DNA of 47,535 nucleotides from Lentisphaerae bacterium GWF2_38_69. Lineage in GTDB: Bacteria > Verrucomicrobiota > Lentisphaeria > Victivallales > GWF2-38-69. Both the position numbers and the translations under genes were made by a program. The stretch spans positions 1-47,535 of the forward strand of contig MHBE01000065.1 in the NCBI GenBank assembly GCA_001803205.1, written 5' to 3'. Every line of letters starts with the position of its first letter. The stretch's first letter is position 1. This document shows positions 5,687 to 46,875 of this stretch, piece after piece. The notes beneath the pieces were generated by a model, which did not search any database, was not told the DNA's origin, and saw nothing but the letters and a program-made list of their open reading frames with translations.

Positions 5687-5718
5687 ACAAATTTGCTCGC
5701 GGCTTCGCTGCTCTAAGA
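5687..5718. repeat. 32-bp dispersed repeat, copy 1
   Basis: This segment matches 17124-17155 at 30 of 32 positions. The shared core is GCGGCTTCGCTGCTCTAAGA, which holds a small hairpin (GCGGC-TTC-GCTGC, one G-U). Both copies sit within 20 bases of the stop codon of a minus-strand gene and touch a heptanucleotide array, here AGACTAT, AGACTAA at 5716-5729. Confidence 0.75.
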
Positions 5719-15959: not shown

Positions 15960-16835
15960 ATGAAAGGGATTATACTTGCAGGTGGTTCAGGCACCAGGCT
16001 CCACCCTGTTACTCTCTGCACGAGCAAACAGCTTCTGCCCATATATGACAAACCGATGATATACTATCCACTCTGTACACTCATGGAAGCCGGCATCAAA
16101 GAAATTCTGATAATTTCAACGCCAAGAGATCTACCGGCATTCAGAAACCTTCTGGGAGATGGTTCCAAGTGGGGAATCTCCCTTGAGTACAGAGAACAGC
16201 CCAGCCCTGACGGACTCGCACAGGCATTTATTATAGGTGAAACCTTCATAGGAAAAAGCAGTGTTTGCCTGATACTCGGAGATAATATTTTTCATGGCTC
16301 TGATTTTGATAAAACCCTTAAAGCCGCCGTTCAAAAGTTGAACGGCGCAACTGTATTCGGTTACTATGTAAGTGATCCCGAGAGATATGGGGTAGCAGAA
16401 TTTGACAAAAATGGAAATGTTATGAGCCTGGAAGAAAAACCCAGAGAACCCAAATCAAATTACGCAGTAACGGGTTTGTATTTTTATGACAACAGTGTTG
16501 TTGAAATCGCAAAAAATCTTAAGCCTTCACCAAGAGGCGAACTGGAAATTACCGATGTAAATAAAATTTATTTGACTCTCGGACAACTTCAACTTGTTAA
16601 ACTAGGCCTTGGTTTTGCCTGGCTTGATACAGGAACTCATAAATCCCTAATGGAAGCATCAATGTACTTCTCTGTCCTTGAAGACAGACAGGGGCTGAAA
16701 GTTGCCTGCCCTGAAGAAGTAGCATGGAGAGAAGGATTTATAAATGATTATCAGCTTGAGCTTTTAGCCAACGAAACTTTCAAAAGCGGCTATGGCAGTT
16801 ATCTCATGAGAATCCTTGAAAAGAAAAACAAATAG
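15960..16835 (+). CDS. rfbA: Glucose-1-phosphate thymidylyltransferase
   Basis: Makes dTDP-glucose from dTTP and glucose-1-phosphate, the first step to dTDP-rhamnose and other dTDP-sugars for surface polysaccharide. The nucleotide-binding motif [20 protein letters not shown] stands at residues 8-27. The metal/sugar contacts [17 protein letters not shown] and the [20 protein letters not shown] region are present. Length of 291 equals RfbA/RmlA. AAGGAG precedes the ATG. The later rml genes are not in the window, so the gene is isolated from its pathway here. Its stop codon overlaps the first base of a palindromic repeat. Confidence 0.96.
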
Positions 16836-16904
16836 AGACGCAAAATCCCTGGCCGACCCGAGTCGTCTCGGGCAGGCCGTTGTCAACGGGCAGGCTTGCG
16901 TCTC
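16835..16904. repeat. 70-bp nested palindromic element after rfbA
   Basis: Outer arms GAGACGCAA (16835-16843) and TTGCGTCTC (16896-16904) enclose two perfect hairpins: CCCGAG-TCGT-CTCGGG (16857-16872) and CCGTT-GTC-AACGG (16877-16889). Folded, it would be a three-way junction. Two inner segments recur on the other strand inside the U32 gene: TCCCTGGCCGAC (12/12) and GTCAACGGGCAGGCT (14/15). It is GC-rich against its surroundings. It may be a non-autonomous mobile palindrome; it also could serve as the rfbA 3' end. Confidence 0.7.
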
Positions 16905-16913
16905 ATCAAAACC

Positions 16914-16933
16914 AGCCGCAAAATGTTGCGGCT
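16914..16933. repeat. Perfect 8-bp hairpin
   Basis: AGCCGCAA-AATG-TTGCGGCT. It follows the nested palindrome by nine bases and shares the GCAA/TTGC core, so it may be a tandem relative. The rest of the 323-base gap up to 17158 holds a heptamer array and a 32-bp repeat, with no gene. Confidence 0.6.
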
Positions 16934-17092
16934 CTACATTGCGAACAGCTTTACTACCATACCCAATAGCAAGGCGGAGATCTGTCCATATCCATACCAC
17001 TATCCGTAAAAAGCATGCATTAAAAACAAGCTTTTTACTTCTAGTAGTCGTTACCAGTTTACTATTGATGAAATCGATTAGGTTATTTCAGC

Positions 17093-17123: not shown

Positions 17124-17155
17124 ACAAATTTGGTTGCGGCTTCGCTGCTCTAAGA
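17124..17155. repeat. 32-bp dispersed repeat, copy 2
   Basis: Matches 5687-5718 at 30 of 32 positions. It begins four bases after a heptamer array and ends three bases before the stop codon end of the ATP-grasp gene. As with copy 1, it sits at the 3' end of a minus-strand gene. Confidence 0.75.
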
Positions 17156-21860: not shown

Positions 21861-21956
21861 ATTATACCCAAAGGGTATTTGAATATTGGTTTTATTTCGC
21901 ACATATGAACTCATTTTGTGTAGATATTTTTCGAAAATCATTTCGCTTTAAGTATA
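21861..21956 (+). repeat. 96-bp dispersed repeat, copy A
   Basis: Aligned by eye without gaps, it matches the reverse complement of 42803-42898 at 92 of 96 positions. It begins with a hairpin ATACCC-AAA-GGGTAT (21864-21878). Both copies lie next to the start of a gene. No ORF long enough for a transposase is inside, so it is a non-coding interspersed element. Confidence 0.85.
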
Positions 21957-42802: not shown

Positions 42803-42898
42803 TATACTTAAAGCGAAATGATTTTCGGAAAATATTTACACAAAATGAGTTCATATGTGCGAAATAAAACCAATATTAAAATACCCCTTGGGTATAAT
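42803..42898 (-). repeat. 96-bp dispersed repeat, copy B
   Basis: Reverse complement matches 21861-21956 at 92 of 96 positions without gaps. It fills nearly the whole 122-base gap between dsbD and the DsbA-like gene. Read on the plus strand it ends with the hairpin ATACCC-CTT-GGGTAT and a TATAAT (42893-42898), 14 bases before the ATG at 42913, so it has become the 5' region of that gene. Confidence 0.85.
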
Positions 42899-43547: not shown

Positions 43548-44525
43548 ATGTCCTGCAATCACACACACAATCACGACGAACTCCCTGAAGAACATCATGA
43601 ACATTCTGAACCGCATACACATGCAGGGCATTCTCATTCGCACTTTGATGAAAATGCTTCATCACTCAAAATACTATTTACAATCATTCTCAATCTGATT
43701 ATAGGCGCTGCTGAAGTCATTGGCGGCATATTCTCAGGAAGCCTGTCGCTCATATCCGATGCCCTGCACAATTTTTCTGATGCTCTAGCTATCATCATCT
43801 CCTATATTGCTATTAAAATAAGTAAAATCACACAGACAGAAGGTTTCACATTCGGTTTCAAACGCGCCGAAATCCTGGCTGCATTGATCAATGCTTCAGC
43901 GCTGCTTGTCATAAGCATTTTCCTTATATGGGAAGCTATAGAACGATTCTATGAACCAAACACCATTGGCGCAACTGTAATGTTCATTGTTGCCTTAATC
44001 GGTTTGATAGCCAATATTTTAGGGGCTTTGCTCCTTCGAGCCGATTCAAAGAATAGCCTAAACCTGAAATCCGCGTATCTGCACCTTTTCAGCGATGCCG
44101 TAACAAGCGTAGCAGTAATTCTCGGAGCCATCTGTATTCATTACTGGAGGATATACTGGCTTGACCCTCTTCTCACCATAGCCATTTCTATTTACATCCT
44201 GATTGAGTCCTTCAAAATTCTCAAACATACTCTTATCATACTTATGATGGGCAAACCCGATCACATATCGCTTACAGATGTAAAGACAGCACTTGAAGCT
44301 ATCTCTGAAATAGACAACATCCATCACTGTCATCTCTGGATGCTTACGGATAAACTCTTTCATTTTGAAGCCCATATAGATATAAATAATATTAACAATA
44401 CAGACACAGACAAAATTCTACATAAGGCAGAGCAAATACTTAAAGATAAATTCGGTATTACTCATTCTACATTGCAGATAGAAAAATCGCGCTGTGATTC
44501 AAAGGAACTTCTTAATCATGTCTAA
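43548..44525 (+). CDS. Cation diffusion facilitator (Zn2+/Co2+/Cd2+ exporter)
   Basis: Six-helix metal/proton antiporter of the CDF family (CzcD/ZitB type), 325 residues. The first 35 residues are His-rich (HTHNHDELPEEHHEHSEP and more), a cytoplasmic metal-binding tail. Transport-site motifs are SDALHNFSDALAI in helix 2 and HLFSDAVTSVAV in helix 5, both HxxxD, typical of zinc transporters. The C-terminal cytoplasmic domain has HHCHLWMLT. It begins 5 bases after the DsbA-like gene and overlaps the start of the U32 gene by 8 bases. Confidence 0.95.
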   Translation: MSCNHTHNHDELPEEHHEHSEPHTHAGHSHSHFDENASSLKILFTIILNLIIGAAEVIGGIFSGSLSLISDALHNFSDALAIIISYIAIKISKITQTEGFTFGFKRAEILAALINASALLVISIFLIWEAIERFYEPNTIGATVMFIVALIGLIANILGALLLRADSKNSLNLKSAYLHLFSDAVTSVAVILGAICIHYWRIYWLDPLLTIAISIYILIESFKILKHTLIILMMGKPDHISLTDVKTALEAISEIDNIHHCHLWMLTDKLFHFEAHIDINNINNTDTDKILHKAEQILKDKFGITHSTLQIEKSRCDSKELLNHV

Positions 44526-46875
44526 AGATTATCAAAAGAAAAAACCCGAACTCCTGGCTCCTGCAGGAAGCTTAGCCGCCGGAATCACAGCTATAGACTA
44601 TGGAGCTGATGCTGTTTACGGTGGATTAACCAAGTTTAACGCTCGTGAAAGGACAGAAAACTTCACTCTGGAAGAAATGTCAAAGATGATCGCCTATGCT
44701 CATAAATTCGACAGAAAAGTATATCTGACTTTCAATACCCTTGTTAAGGAAAACGAAATCGAAGAAGCCGCAGAAAATCTATTTGAAATATCAAAACTAA
44801 AACCTGACGCTGTAATTGTTCAGGATCTCGGAATAGTGCATCTGCTTAAGACATATTTTCCTTTCATGCCAATACATGCTTCGACTCAAATGAGCATTCA
44901 CAACAGCGCGGGAATTAATTTCGCTAAAAAACTCGGAATGAAACGAGTCATCCTCGAAAGACAGCTGACCCTGGACGAAATCAGAACCATTAAAAAGAAT
45001 TCACAGCTGGAACTGGAAATATTTATCCACGGCGCCTTGTGCTGTTCCATCTCCGGAAACTGCATCCTCTCTTCATGGAGCGGCGGCTTCAGCGGAAACA
45101 GAGGCAAGTGCAAACAGCCATGCAGAAAACCTTATACATGCAATGGAATTACCAACTACACTCTTTCCACAAGAGATTTATGTTCAAGCGAAACAATTTC
45201 AGCATATAAGGACATCGGCATAAATTCATTGAAAATCGAAGGCCGCCTGAGAAAACCTGACTACATAAAAACAGTTGTTTCAGCATATCGTTCCCTACTT
45301 GATTCAGATTCACCTGCAACTCTTTCAAAATCTAAACAAACTCTTCAGGGAGCTCTGGGCAGAAAGCTGATCGAAGGCTTCACCGCCAGAGAATCTTTCA
45401 AAGATATGGTCGAACCTGATGCCCTTGGGATCACAGGCAAAGAGTGCGGAAAAGTCCTTGATATTAAAGAAGGTGGATTTAAAGCTCTGATAACAAGTTT
45501 TATCCACATCGGCGACAGAGTCAGAGTCCAGCCCCCGAGCGGAGAGGAAGGCGAAGCCTTCACTGTTACTGAAATCTTTGTAAACAATAAAATTGAAAAG
45601 AAATGCTTTAAAGGGACGACATGTTTTATCAAGGCTCTCAAGCAGATTCCTCCTAATGGCATCATTTACAAAATAGGCGAAAGCGGCGGCGACATGGTTT
45701 CTGCCATCTCCCATCTGCCGAAACTCAAACATAAGATAGATCTGAGTATCACTGTTTCAAAAAACGGTATAAAAGCTGAATTACCGAAATTCAAACATCT
45801 CCAATGGACAGATTCTGAACCTATCTCGGAAGCAAAAAAACAGCCCGTTTCCAAAGAAACTGTCGCCGAAGAATTCACATCAGCTAAATCGGAGCTCTAT
45901 GAAACAGGCAAAATAGATGTATCCATTGCAGGTAATCTCTTTATCCCTTCGAGCGTGCTCAAACAGAAACGCAGGGATTTCTGGGATTGGCTTATTCCTA
46001 AACTTGACGACTCCTTCTTCTTCATGGATTCAATCGAAGGTTTTTCCAGATTCAAATCCGATTATTCAGAATTAAACAATGGTAGGGTGCTATCTCCGAG
46101 AGCGCCGGGTGACTGTGGTCACCTTCTATTAGCGGACGATTGCGGAGCCAGCCCGTTGACGACTGAGTCGGCCAGGGAGCCGTCCCTTCCTAAACTCAGC
46201 AATATTAAAAACGACCAAAAAACAACTGTTCTGCTCAGAGAAGGAGAAACCTCTCCAATAGAAGGCGCTCTCTTATCCAATACCCTCGACGATTTCGATT
46301 CAAACACTCAGGAGATAACTCTCCCTGAATTATGTTTTGAATATGATTTGGACAGAATAGAACGCAAGATAAAAATAGCTGTCGATAAAGGAATAAAAAA
46401 CTTCAGAGTTACCGCGCTCTATCAGTTTGAACTGCTTTTAAAATACAAAAAACTCAATATTTCTACTTCCTATCCCCTGCCAACTGTAAACTCTCTGGCT
46501 GTCAGAGAAATAATGAATTCAGCAAGAAGGGCCGGATTTAACCTCAGCACAGTTCAGGCATGGATTGAACTTGAGAAAGAGGCAATTCAAAGTTTCTGCG
46601 CTAAAAGTTCAATTCCAGTAGAAATTTACAGATACGGAAGACCCTTTCTCTTCGTAACGCGCGCGCATCTGACAGCAAAAGGAGTTATGAGAGATAAAAA
46701 AGGAATAGGCTTCATCGTTAAGAAAGATTCGAAAAAAGCGCTTGCAATTATCTACGGAGAAAAAGTTTTTCTTTCAGAAGGCTTCGAAGAATACAGCTCA
46801 TTCTATGACTTCATCAACGCAGACCCTGGCGAAACCCAAACCACATCTTTCAACCTGAATTACGCATTGTTCTAA
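44518..46875 (+). CDS. Peptidase U32 family protein (RlhA/YhbU-like, with long C-terminal part)
   Basis: N-terminal U32 domain (residues about 10-270): ELLAPAGSLAAGITAIDYG, ADAVYGG, STQMSIHNSAG and the Cys-rich motif HGALCCSISGNC then GNRGKCKQPCR, whose four cysteines bind an iron-sulfur cluster in relatives. RlhA and TrhP hydroxylate rRNA or tRNA using this family of fold; others are called collagenase-like peptidases. A DUF3656-like second half follows. Residues about 522-561 are coded by a palindromic insertion. Start: ATG at 44518 with AAGGA 11 bases before; a GTG at 44494 is less likely. It overlaps the CDF gene. RNA hydroxylation is a family-based guess. Confidence 0.88.
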   Translation: MSKDYQKKKPELLAPAGSLAAGITAIDYGADAVYGGLTKFNARERTENFTLEEMSKMIAYAHKFDRKVYLTFNTLVKENEIEEAAENLFEISKLKPDAVIVQDLGIVHLLKTYFPFMPIHASTQMSIHNSAGINFAKKLGMKRVILERQLTLDEIRTIKKNSQLELEIFIHGALCCSISGNCILSSWSGGFSGNRGKCKQPCRKPYTCNGITNYTLSTRDLCSSETISAYKDIGINSLKIEGRLRKPDYIKTVVSAYRSLLDSDSPATLSKSKQTLQGALGRKLIEGFTARESFKDMVEPDALGITGKECGKVLDIKEGGFKALITSFIHIGDRVRVQPPSGEEGEAFTVTEIFVNNKIEKKCFKGTTCFIKALKQIPPNGIIYKIGESGGDMVSAISHLPKLKHKIDLSITVSKNGIKAELPKFKHLQWTDSEPISEAKKQPVSKETVAEEFTSAKSELYETGKIDVSIAGNLFIPSSVLKQKRRDFWDWLIPKLDDSFFFMDSIEGFSRFKSDYSELNNGRVLSPRAPGDCGHLLLADDCGASPLTTESAREPSLPKLSNIKNDQKTTVLLREGETSPIEGALLSNTLDDFDSNTQEITLPELCFEYDLDRIERKIKIAVDKGIKNFRVTALYQFELLLKYKKLNISTSYPLPTVNSLAVREIMNSARRAGFNLSTVQAWIELEKEAIQSFCAKSSIPVEIYRYGRPFLFVTRAHLTAKGVMRDKKGIGFIVKKDSKKALAIIYGEKVFLSEGFEEYSSFYDFINADPGETQTTSFNLNYALF
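46081..46200 (-). repeat. Palindromic element inserted in frame in the U32 gene
   Basis: GC-rich stretch with hairpins GGTGAC-TGTG-GTCACC (about 46108-46123) and CGACT-G-AGTCG, and outer arms GGACG/CGTCC (about 46134 and 46181). On the minus strand it shares TCCCTGGCCGAC (12/12) and GTCAACGGGCTGGCT (14/15) with the element after rfbA at 16835-16904. The frame stays open, adding about 40 residues (including ADDCGASPLTTESAREP) that look foreign to the domain. Exact ends are not resolved. Confidence 0.65.

Follow-up and report, generated by a model that had tools for sequence, protein, structure and literature searches.

How does a GC-rich palindrome come to lie within the coding frame of a conserved gene and leave that frame open? 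The in-frame survival of mobile palindromes is famous from Rickettsia and is usually seen as a curiosity of obligate intracellular bacteria. The question arises here from a stretch of 47,535 nt (the window), belonging to a genome in 66 contigs that is 95% complete, in which an initial annotation had placed such a palindrome at 46081-46200, in the frame of a U32 gene. The product of this gene matches the Pfam families PF01136 (Peptidase_U32, E 5.6e-67) and PF12392 (DUF3656, E 6.6e-10), and the ORF runs across the palindromic element with no break, a GTG at 44494 being a possible upstream start. By its combination of U32 and DUF3656, it is a putative RlhA-like rRNA-modifying enzyme. The host was placed as a Lentisphaerota-type bacterium because the named top homologues of the U32 protein are mostly from Victivallales / Lentisphaerota MAGs. 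The explanation that we hold with considerable confidence is that the U32 segment is a dispersed GTAG-tagged REP dimer (BIME/REPIN), probably brought by RAYT-driven spread and inserted in frame in a linker; it is now probably immobile and encodes a probably neutral loop. The features of the locus are collected in Table 1.

Table 1. Coordinates in the window of the U32 gene, its palindromic element and the palindrome after rfbA.
Feature	Position	Strand	Details
Palindrome after rfbA	16835-16904	.	Other hairpin (GAGACGCAAG^ATTTTGCGTCTC) with a 48-nt version of the nested unit at 16847-16894, minus strand
U32 peptidase / DUF3656 family gene carrying the insertion	44518-46875	+	785 aa; PF01136 + PF12392; uninterrupted ORF
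Net inserted stretch	46078-46191	+	114 nt = 38 codons, residues 521-558 (NGRVLSPRAPGDCGHLLLADDCGASPLTTESAREPSLP); ends approximate by a few nt
Whole palindromic element, a BIME (two REPs head to head, with nested unit)	46081-46190	+	Genome-wide copies; alignment module by module
Left REP hairpin	46081-46106	+	GTAG tag at 46082-46085; CM R2 match 32.7 bits; hairpin-family covariation
Spacer mini-hairpin	46107-46123	+	GGGTGAC-TGT-GGTCACC; common to other copies, e.g. L002, L004, L054, L055
Right REP hairpin, inverted	46134-46190	-	Stem partly decayed; tag GGAAGG vs GGTAGG; compared with canonical GGACGGCTGCGGAG-AGCCGTCCCTACC
Nested 30-nt hairpin unit	46148-46177	+	Inserted in the right REP loop at GGAG^AGCC; CM R1 match 49.5 bits; empty 14-mer

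The element in the U32 gene (GGTAGGG...CCCTTCC) is GC-rich and 110 nt long. Its start, its GC-richness and the intact frame were as first described, and its end was moved to 46190, 10 nt earlier than proposed. The element is open in only two of the six reading frames, one of which is the frame used by the U32 gene. The left REP carries GGTAGG at 46081-46086, with GTAG beside the hairpin, and the right tag reads GAAG in place of GTAG. The loop of the right REP is found without the nested unit as an exact 14-mer (TGCGGAGAGCCGTC) at other loci. The two blocks reported to be shared with the palindrome after rfbA, GTCGGCCAGGGA (12/12) and AGCCxGCCCGTTGAC (14/15), were both confirmed, and they belong to one nested unit of 30 nt; outside that unit, the rfbA palindrome is a different hairpin from the U32 REP, and its own empty 14-mer, ACGCAAGATTTTGC, is likewise present elsewhere. 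Taken whole, the U32 copy folded no better than shuffles (RNA z=-0.84), and its right half as DNA showed no folding excess over shuffles (z=+0.5); canonical REP arms fold well as single-stranded DNA, with z about -3. Rfam gave no match anywhere in the window. Directly after the rfbA palindrome, a second hairpin of the GTAG type occupies 16915-16938 (GTAGAGCCGCAACATTTTGCGGC on the minus strand), and this hairpin type is also found on contig C3, where it adjoins another repeat.

Protein comparisons show that the U32 segment is an insertion relative to homologues, the empty site being seen at the protein level. In a set of 110 proteins, the median length of the linker, measured from conserved position 516 to conserved position 602, is 47 residues as against 85 in the window protein (+38), the next highest length being 80, and homologues sharing the segment, which would have spoken for a native origin, were not seen. 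In a first protein search, the homologue from a sister genus of the same family (G001) aligned at residues 4-519 and 569-784, blocks that are separated by 11 residues in the G001 protein and by 49 in the window protein. The closest U32 homologue, 57-60% identical, has a gap at the insert, and alignment with ten U32 homologues places a gap at the same position; the gap that the initial annotation had predicted at residues of about 522-561 is thus exactly where it was expected in the closest relative. The insertion had been said to add about 40 residues and to do so without breaking the frame, of which the latter holds and the former becomes a net figure of 38, the excess of 114 nt being made up of AAT, the element and T (codons 521-558). 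Few regions of the U32 family vary as much as this linker. An AlphaFold2 run on an alignment of 36 sequences gave the protein a mean pLDDT of 87.6, with residues 524-556, which begin shortly after a helix at 498-517, as the only internal stretch below 50, a drop that is partly expected where there are no aligned relatives; the 38 inserted residues, to which this stretch belongs, are a predicted disordered or floppy loop.

Further copies of the element, the absence of which had been named as evidence against a mobile origin, were found in the genome, some of them in frame in coding genes. A 131-nt query in BLAST matched 23 other places in the genome at E<=1 (best 7e-13), with matches on other contigs, and a longer query gave 68 genomic matches. 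The CM of the hairpin end (R2) had 56 matches at E<=5 (best 1.5e-5) and that of the nested unit (R1) had 25 (best 4e-12); together, CM and BLAST matches define about 45 clusters or loci of this family, here called REP-A. Chance resemblance is excluded by the genomic copies at E down to 7e-13 and by the CM matches. R2 serves only as a sequence-like detector, its automatic structure being wrong for the hairpin, and a separate test of the hairpin used a fixed structure: 100% of the cells were paired, with 15 double changes and a score of 0.787 vs 0.195 for shuffled alignments, a score reached by 0 of 500 shuffles. The helix has 6 bp, and with double changes at four of the six pairs it is seen that the stem is kept by compensatory change. 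The GTAG tag is present in eight of nine aligned arms and is GCAG in the ninth. Many REP-A copies are inverted (head-to-head) pairs with spacers of variable length, and a small GGTGAC/GTCACC hairpin lies within several of these spacers. No consistent target-site duplication was found among the REP-A copies compared.

The link to a transposase comes from the sister genus. On contig C59 of G001, a REP-A match is 28/28 identical, and REP-A dimers flank both sides of a 156-aa ORF that matches NCBIfam NF047646 (REP-associated tyrosine transposase) with 85.2 bits, the cut-off being 80. The transposase link is shown for the REP-A family and not for the window's own genome, where no cognate RAYT with REP-A beside it was found among the three Y1 transposase genes examined. 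One of these, on C21, lies between palindromes that follow the two-arm plan of REP-A and carry GGAG tags instead; another, on C35, is flanked by a different repeat family, and the third, on C13, has a palindrome at the gene start. The C21 locus (L053, positions 1-2132 of the contig) holds a RAYT gene with pairs of GGAG-tagged palindromes on both sides. Before this gene, where the contig starts, comes the 3' end of another, almost identical RAYT, a tandem duplication of the RAYT-REP unit.

By the features tested, the U32 element is a member of the GTAG REP / BIME (RAYT) superfamily. It resembles the GTAG REPs and BIMEs (REPINs) described with RAYTs in its GTAG tag by a short stem-loop, its many copies and its head-to-head dimers (PMC3733652, PMC2817692, PMC3116915), and also in that REPs flank a RAYT gene and that most copies lie between genes, while some lie in frame within genes and add residues to the product. 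Intragenic in-frame GTAG REPs are known in several species, most of them in Opitutus terrae (Verrucomicrobia), and it was suggested that they may be neutral, lying in flexible linkers (PMC3733652). The host lineage differs here, that paper making no mention of Lentisphaerae or Victivallis, and, unlike in known GTAG REPs, a nested unit of 27-30 nt is common to the loops of three hairpin families. The likeness to Rickettsia palindromic elements (RPE) drawn in the initial annotation stands as an analogy of outcome and not as membership. RPE and the palindromic elements of Wolbachia are also about 100-150 nt long, lie in frame in unrelated conserved genes and add a probably neutral peptide (PMC10969869, PMC2229807), whereas the U32 host, judged by its mostly Victivallales / Lentisphaerota homologues, is not one of the Rickettsiales, and its element is a dimer of GTAG-tagged REPs that is tied to a RAYT in the sister genus; RPE-4 and RPE-6 have been assigned to the CGTC superfamily, for which no transposase is known (PMC3733652). 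ERIC and Correia elements within genes are similar as short non-autonomous repeats fused in frame in protein genes (PMC2229807), but they are classed as MITEs, which bear terminal inverted repeats and a target-site duplication, and neither a GTAG tag nor a RAYT link is described for them. The kind of event is therefore already documented in other bacteria; the U32 case is unusually well resolved, and what is new about it is mainly the nested loop unit and the recurrent strike on one linker.

The same genome holds other palindromes in frame. In hypF (C52:58516-58592; L244 / L287), a REP-A dimer lies on the same strand and in the same frame as the U32 copy and encodes NGRAVSPKRP...SLP, to be compared with NGRVLSPRAP...SLP in U32 (pattern NGRxxSPxxP...SLP); the region measures 97 aa vs 60-77 in six homologues. 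In murE (C62:34418-34508; gene at L068:166-1743), the palindrome in frame is of a second family, GTAYCAYGGGCG, a pattern with 30 genome matches vs 2 for the reversed control. The distance from DNPR to AGKGH in MurE is 72 aa, as against exactly 44 in 29/29 homologues, an in-frame insertion of 28 residues. Two reverse-transcriptase paralogues (C6:40955, L257, and C22:28436, L213) have the second palindrome in common, in frame, and a nested unit of 27 nt, adding nine residues in frame, is present only in the C22 copy, so that the two form a natural empty/filled pair. In-frame insertion in unrelated conserved genes was found for U32, HypF, MurE and the two reverse-transcriptase paralogues, at least four kinds of gene; these in-gene cases come from targeted loci, and the survey covers in-frame insertions.

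The nested unit occurs in 16 distinct copies, with lengths of 27, 30 or 48 nt, each a multiple of three, which may be due to chance given so few length classes. In 14 of the 16 copies AG stands directly before the unit, at the end of the left flank, and in 15 the right flank begins with A; for nine copies, across three hairpin families, the exact joined 14-mer without the unit is present elsewhere in the fetched parts of the genome. These AG^A flanks and exact empty 14-mers suggest that the unit inserts in hairpin loops at a fixed site, either by its own movement or by recombination copying between loops.

A related lineage adds a second history at the U32 linker. In one genus from another family of the order (L023, L025, L026; genomes G018, G023 and G027), the U32 linkers consist of another palindromic repeat, AAGAACAGCCC...GGCATGTTCTT. 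Genomic copies match the segment of G027 at 79% over 82 nt (E 6e-15) and that of G023 less strongly (E 9e-7); in G018 the gene carries the same segment with a further repeat inserted inside. Since the linkers of this genus are made of a different repeat, the U32 linker was struck independently by unrelated palindromes and stayed open. It is tempting, although on balance doubtful, to see in this a general pattern, in which palindromic mobile repeats of unrelated families recurrently provide new protein linkers in the order, the U32 linker having been extended at least twice independently and kept across species, and in which the unit of 27-30 nt, always a multiple of three and inserting at a specific site (AG^A) in REP loops of several families, would make for modular, frame-safe elements.

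RAYTs elsewhere act on single-stranded hairpin DNA at the GTAG tag (PMC2817692, PMC8266576). By analogy, the REP dimer would have spread through a RAYT acting in this way; it inserted, probably by chance, in the linker that runs from the end of a helix (residue 517) to the C-terminal domain. The insert would have survived because its net 114 nt (38 codons) keeps the frame, the frame taken is one of the two that are open and the linker tolerates a change in length. The nested 30-nt unit may have entered the loop of the right REP before or after the entry of the dimer in the gene, and the decay of the right tag and stem would have followed insertion. As this tag and stem are mutated, the U32 copy is probably immobile now, and we infer that its 38 residues are probably a neutral passenger loop. 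Selection might instead keep the palindrome for a role that the peptide or the mRNA hairpin has acquired, be it that of a functional linker or of a signal for RNA stability or translation. Such a role would agree with the open, in-frame state of the insert and with the different palindromic repeat in the same linker of another genus (the G027 match above), but the sequence and length of the insert vary between lineages, 108/110 homologues have nothing that long, the segment is predicted to be disordered and the hairpin of the U32 copy has decayed, and we regard this role as unlikely.

The mode of entry and the very reality of the insertion were weighed on similar grounds. The view that the element is not a RAYT-linked REP but a classical MITE, which a DDE transposase moves and which has terminal inverted repeats and a target-site duplication, would find support in the imperfect inverted ends (GGTAGGG...CCCTTCC) and in the pentamer TAAAC on both sides of the U32 copy. 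TAAAC was rejected as a target-site duplication, however, since on the left side it stands apart from the element and since the 118-nt insertion that it implies would break the frame; with other copies lacking a consistent duplication and REPs flanking a RAYT in G001, an origin as a MITE is quite improbable. The repeats of a 66-contig assembly can cause misjoins, and the locus could also be a decaying pseudogene, but the flanks are the collinear halves of one gene, in one frame and with conserved residues intact, and the same is seen in murE and hypF; a misjoin was rejected on this collinearity, and artefact or decay is very improbable. A native origin of the segment, as an old part of the protein that resembles the repeat by chance or composition, is suggested by the variability of the linker and is refuted by the genomic repeat copies and the homologue linker lengths together; matches on other contigs at E down to 7e-13, the exact modular match and the absence of the segment in homologues leave it next to no probability.

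The REP dimer in the U32 gene thus brings to an uncultured Lentisphaerota-type bacterium the outcome known from Rickettsia, here with RAYT-linked GTAG REPs, in at least four kinds of gene and with one linker affected twice independently. These insertions offer a clean natural set with which to test whether segments of this kind are neutral passengers or supply raw material for new parts of proteins, and the nested loop unit, for which exact empty sites exist, makes it practicable to study how a very small element enters the loops of other elements. The window also contains repeats of other kinds. An inverted repeat of 96 nt (21861-21956 vs 42803-42898) is 96% identical, AT-rich and unrelated to the REPs, and a direct repeat of 32 nt (5687-5718 vs 17124-17155; ACAAATTTG.T.GCGGCTTCGCTGCTCTAAGA) is 94% identical.
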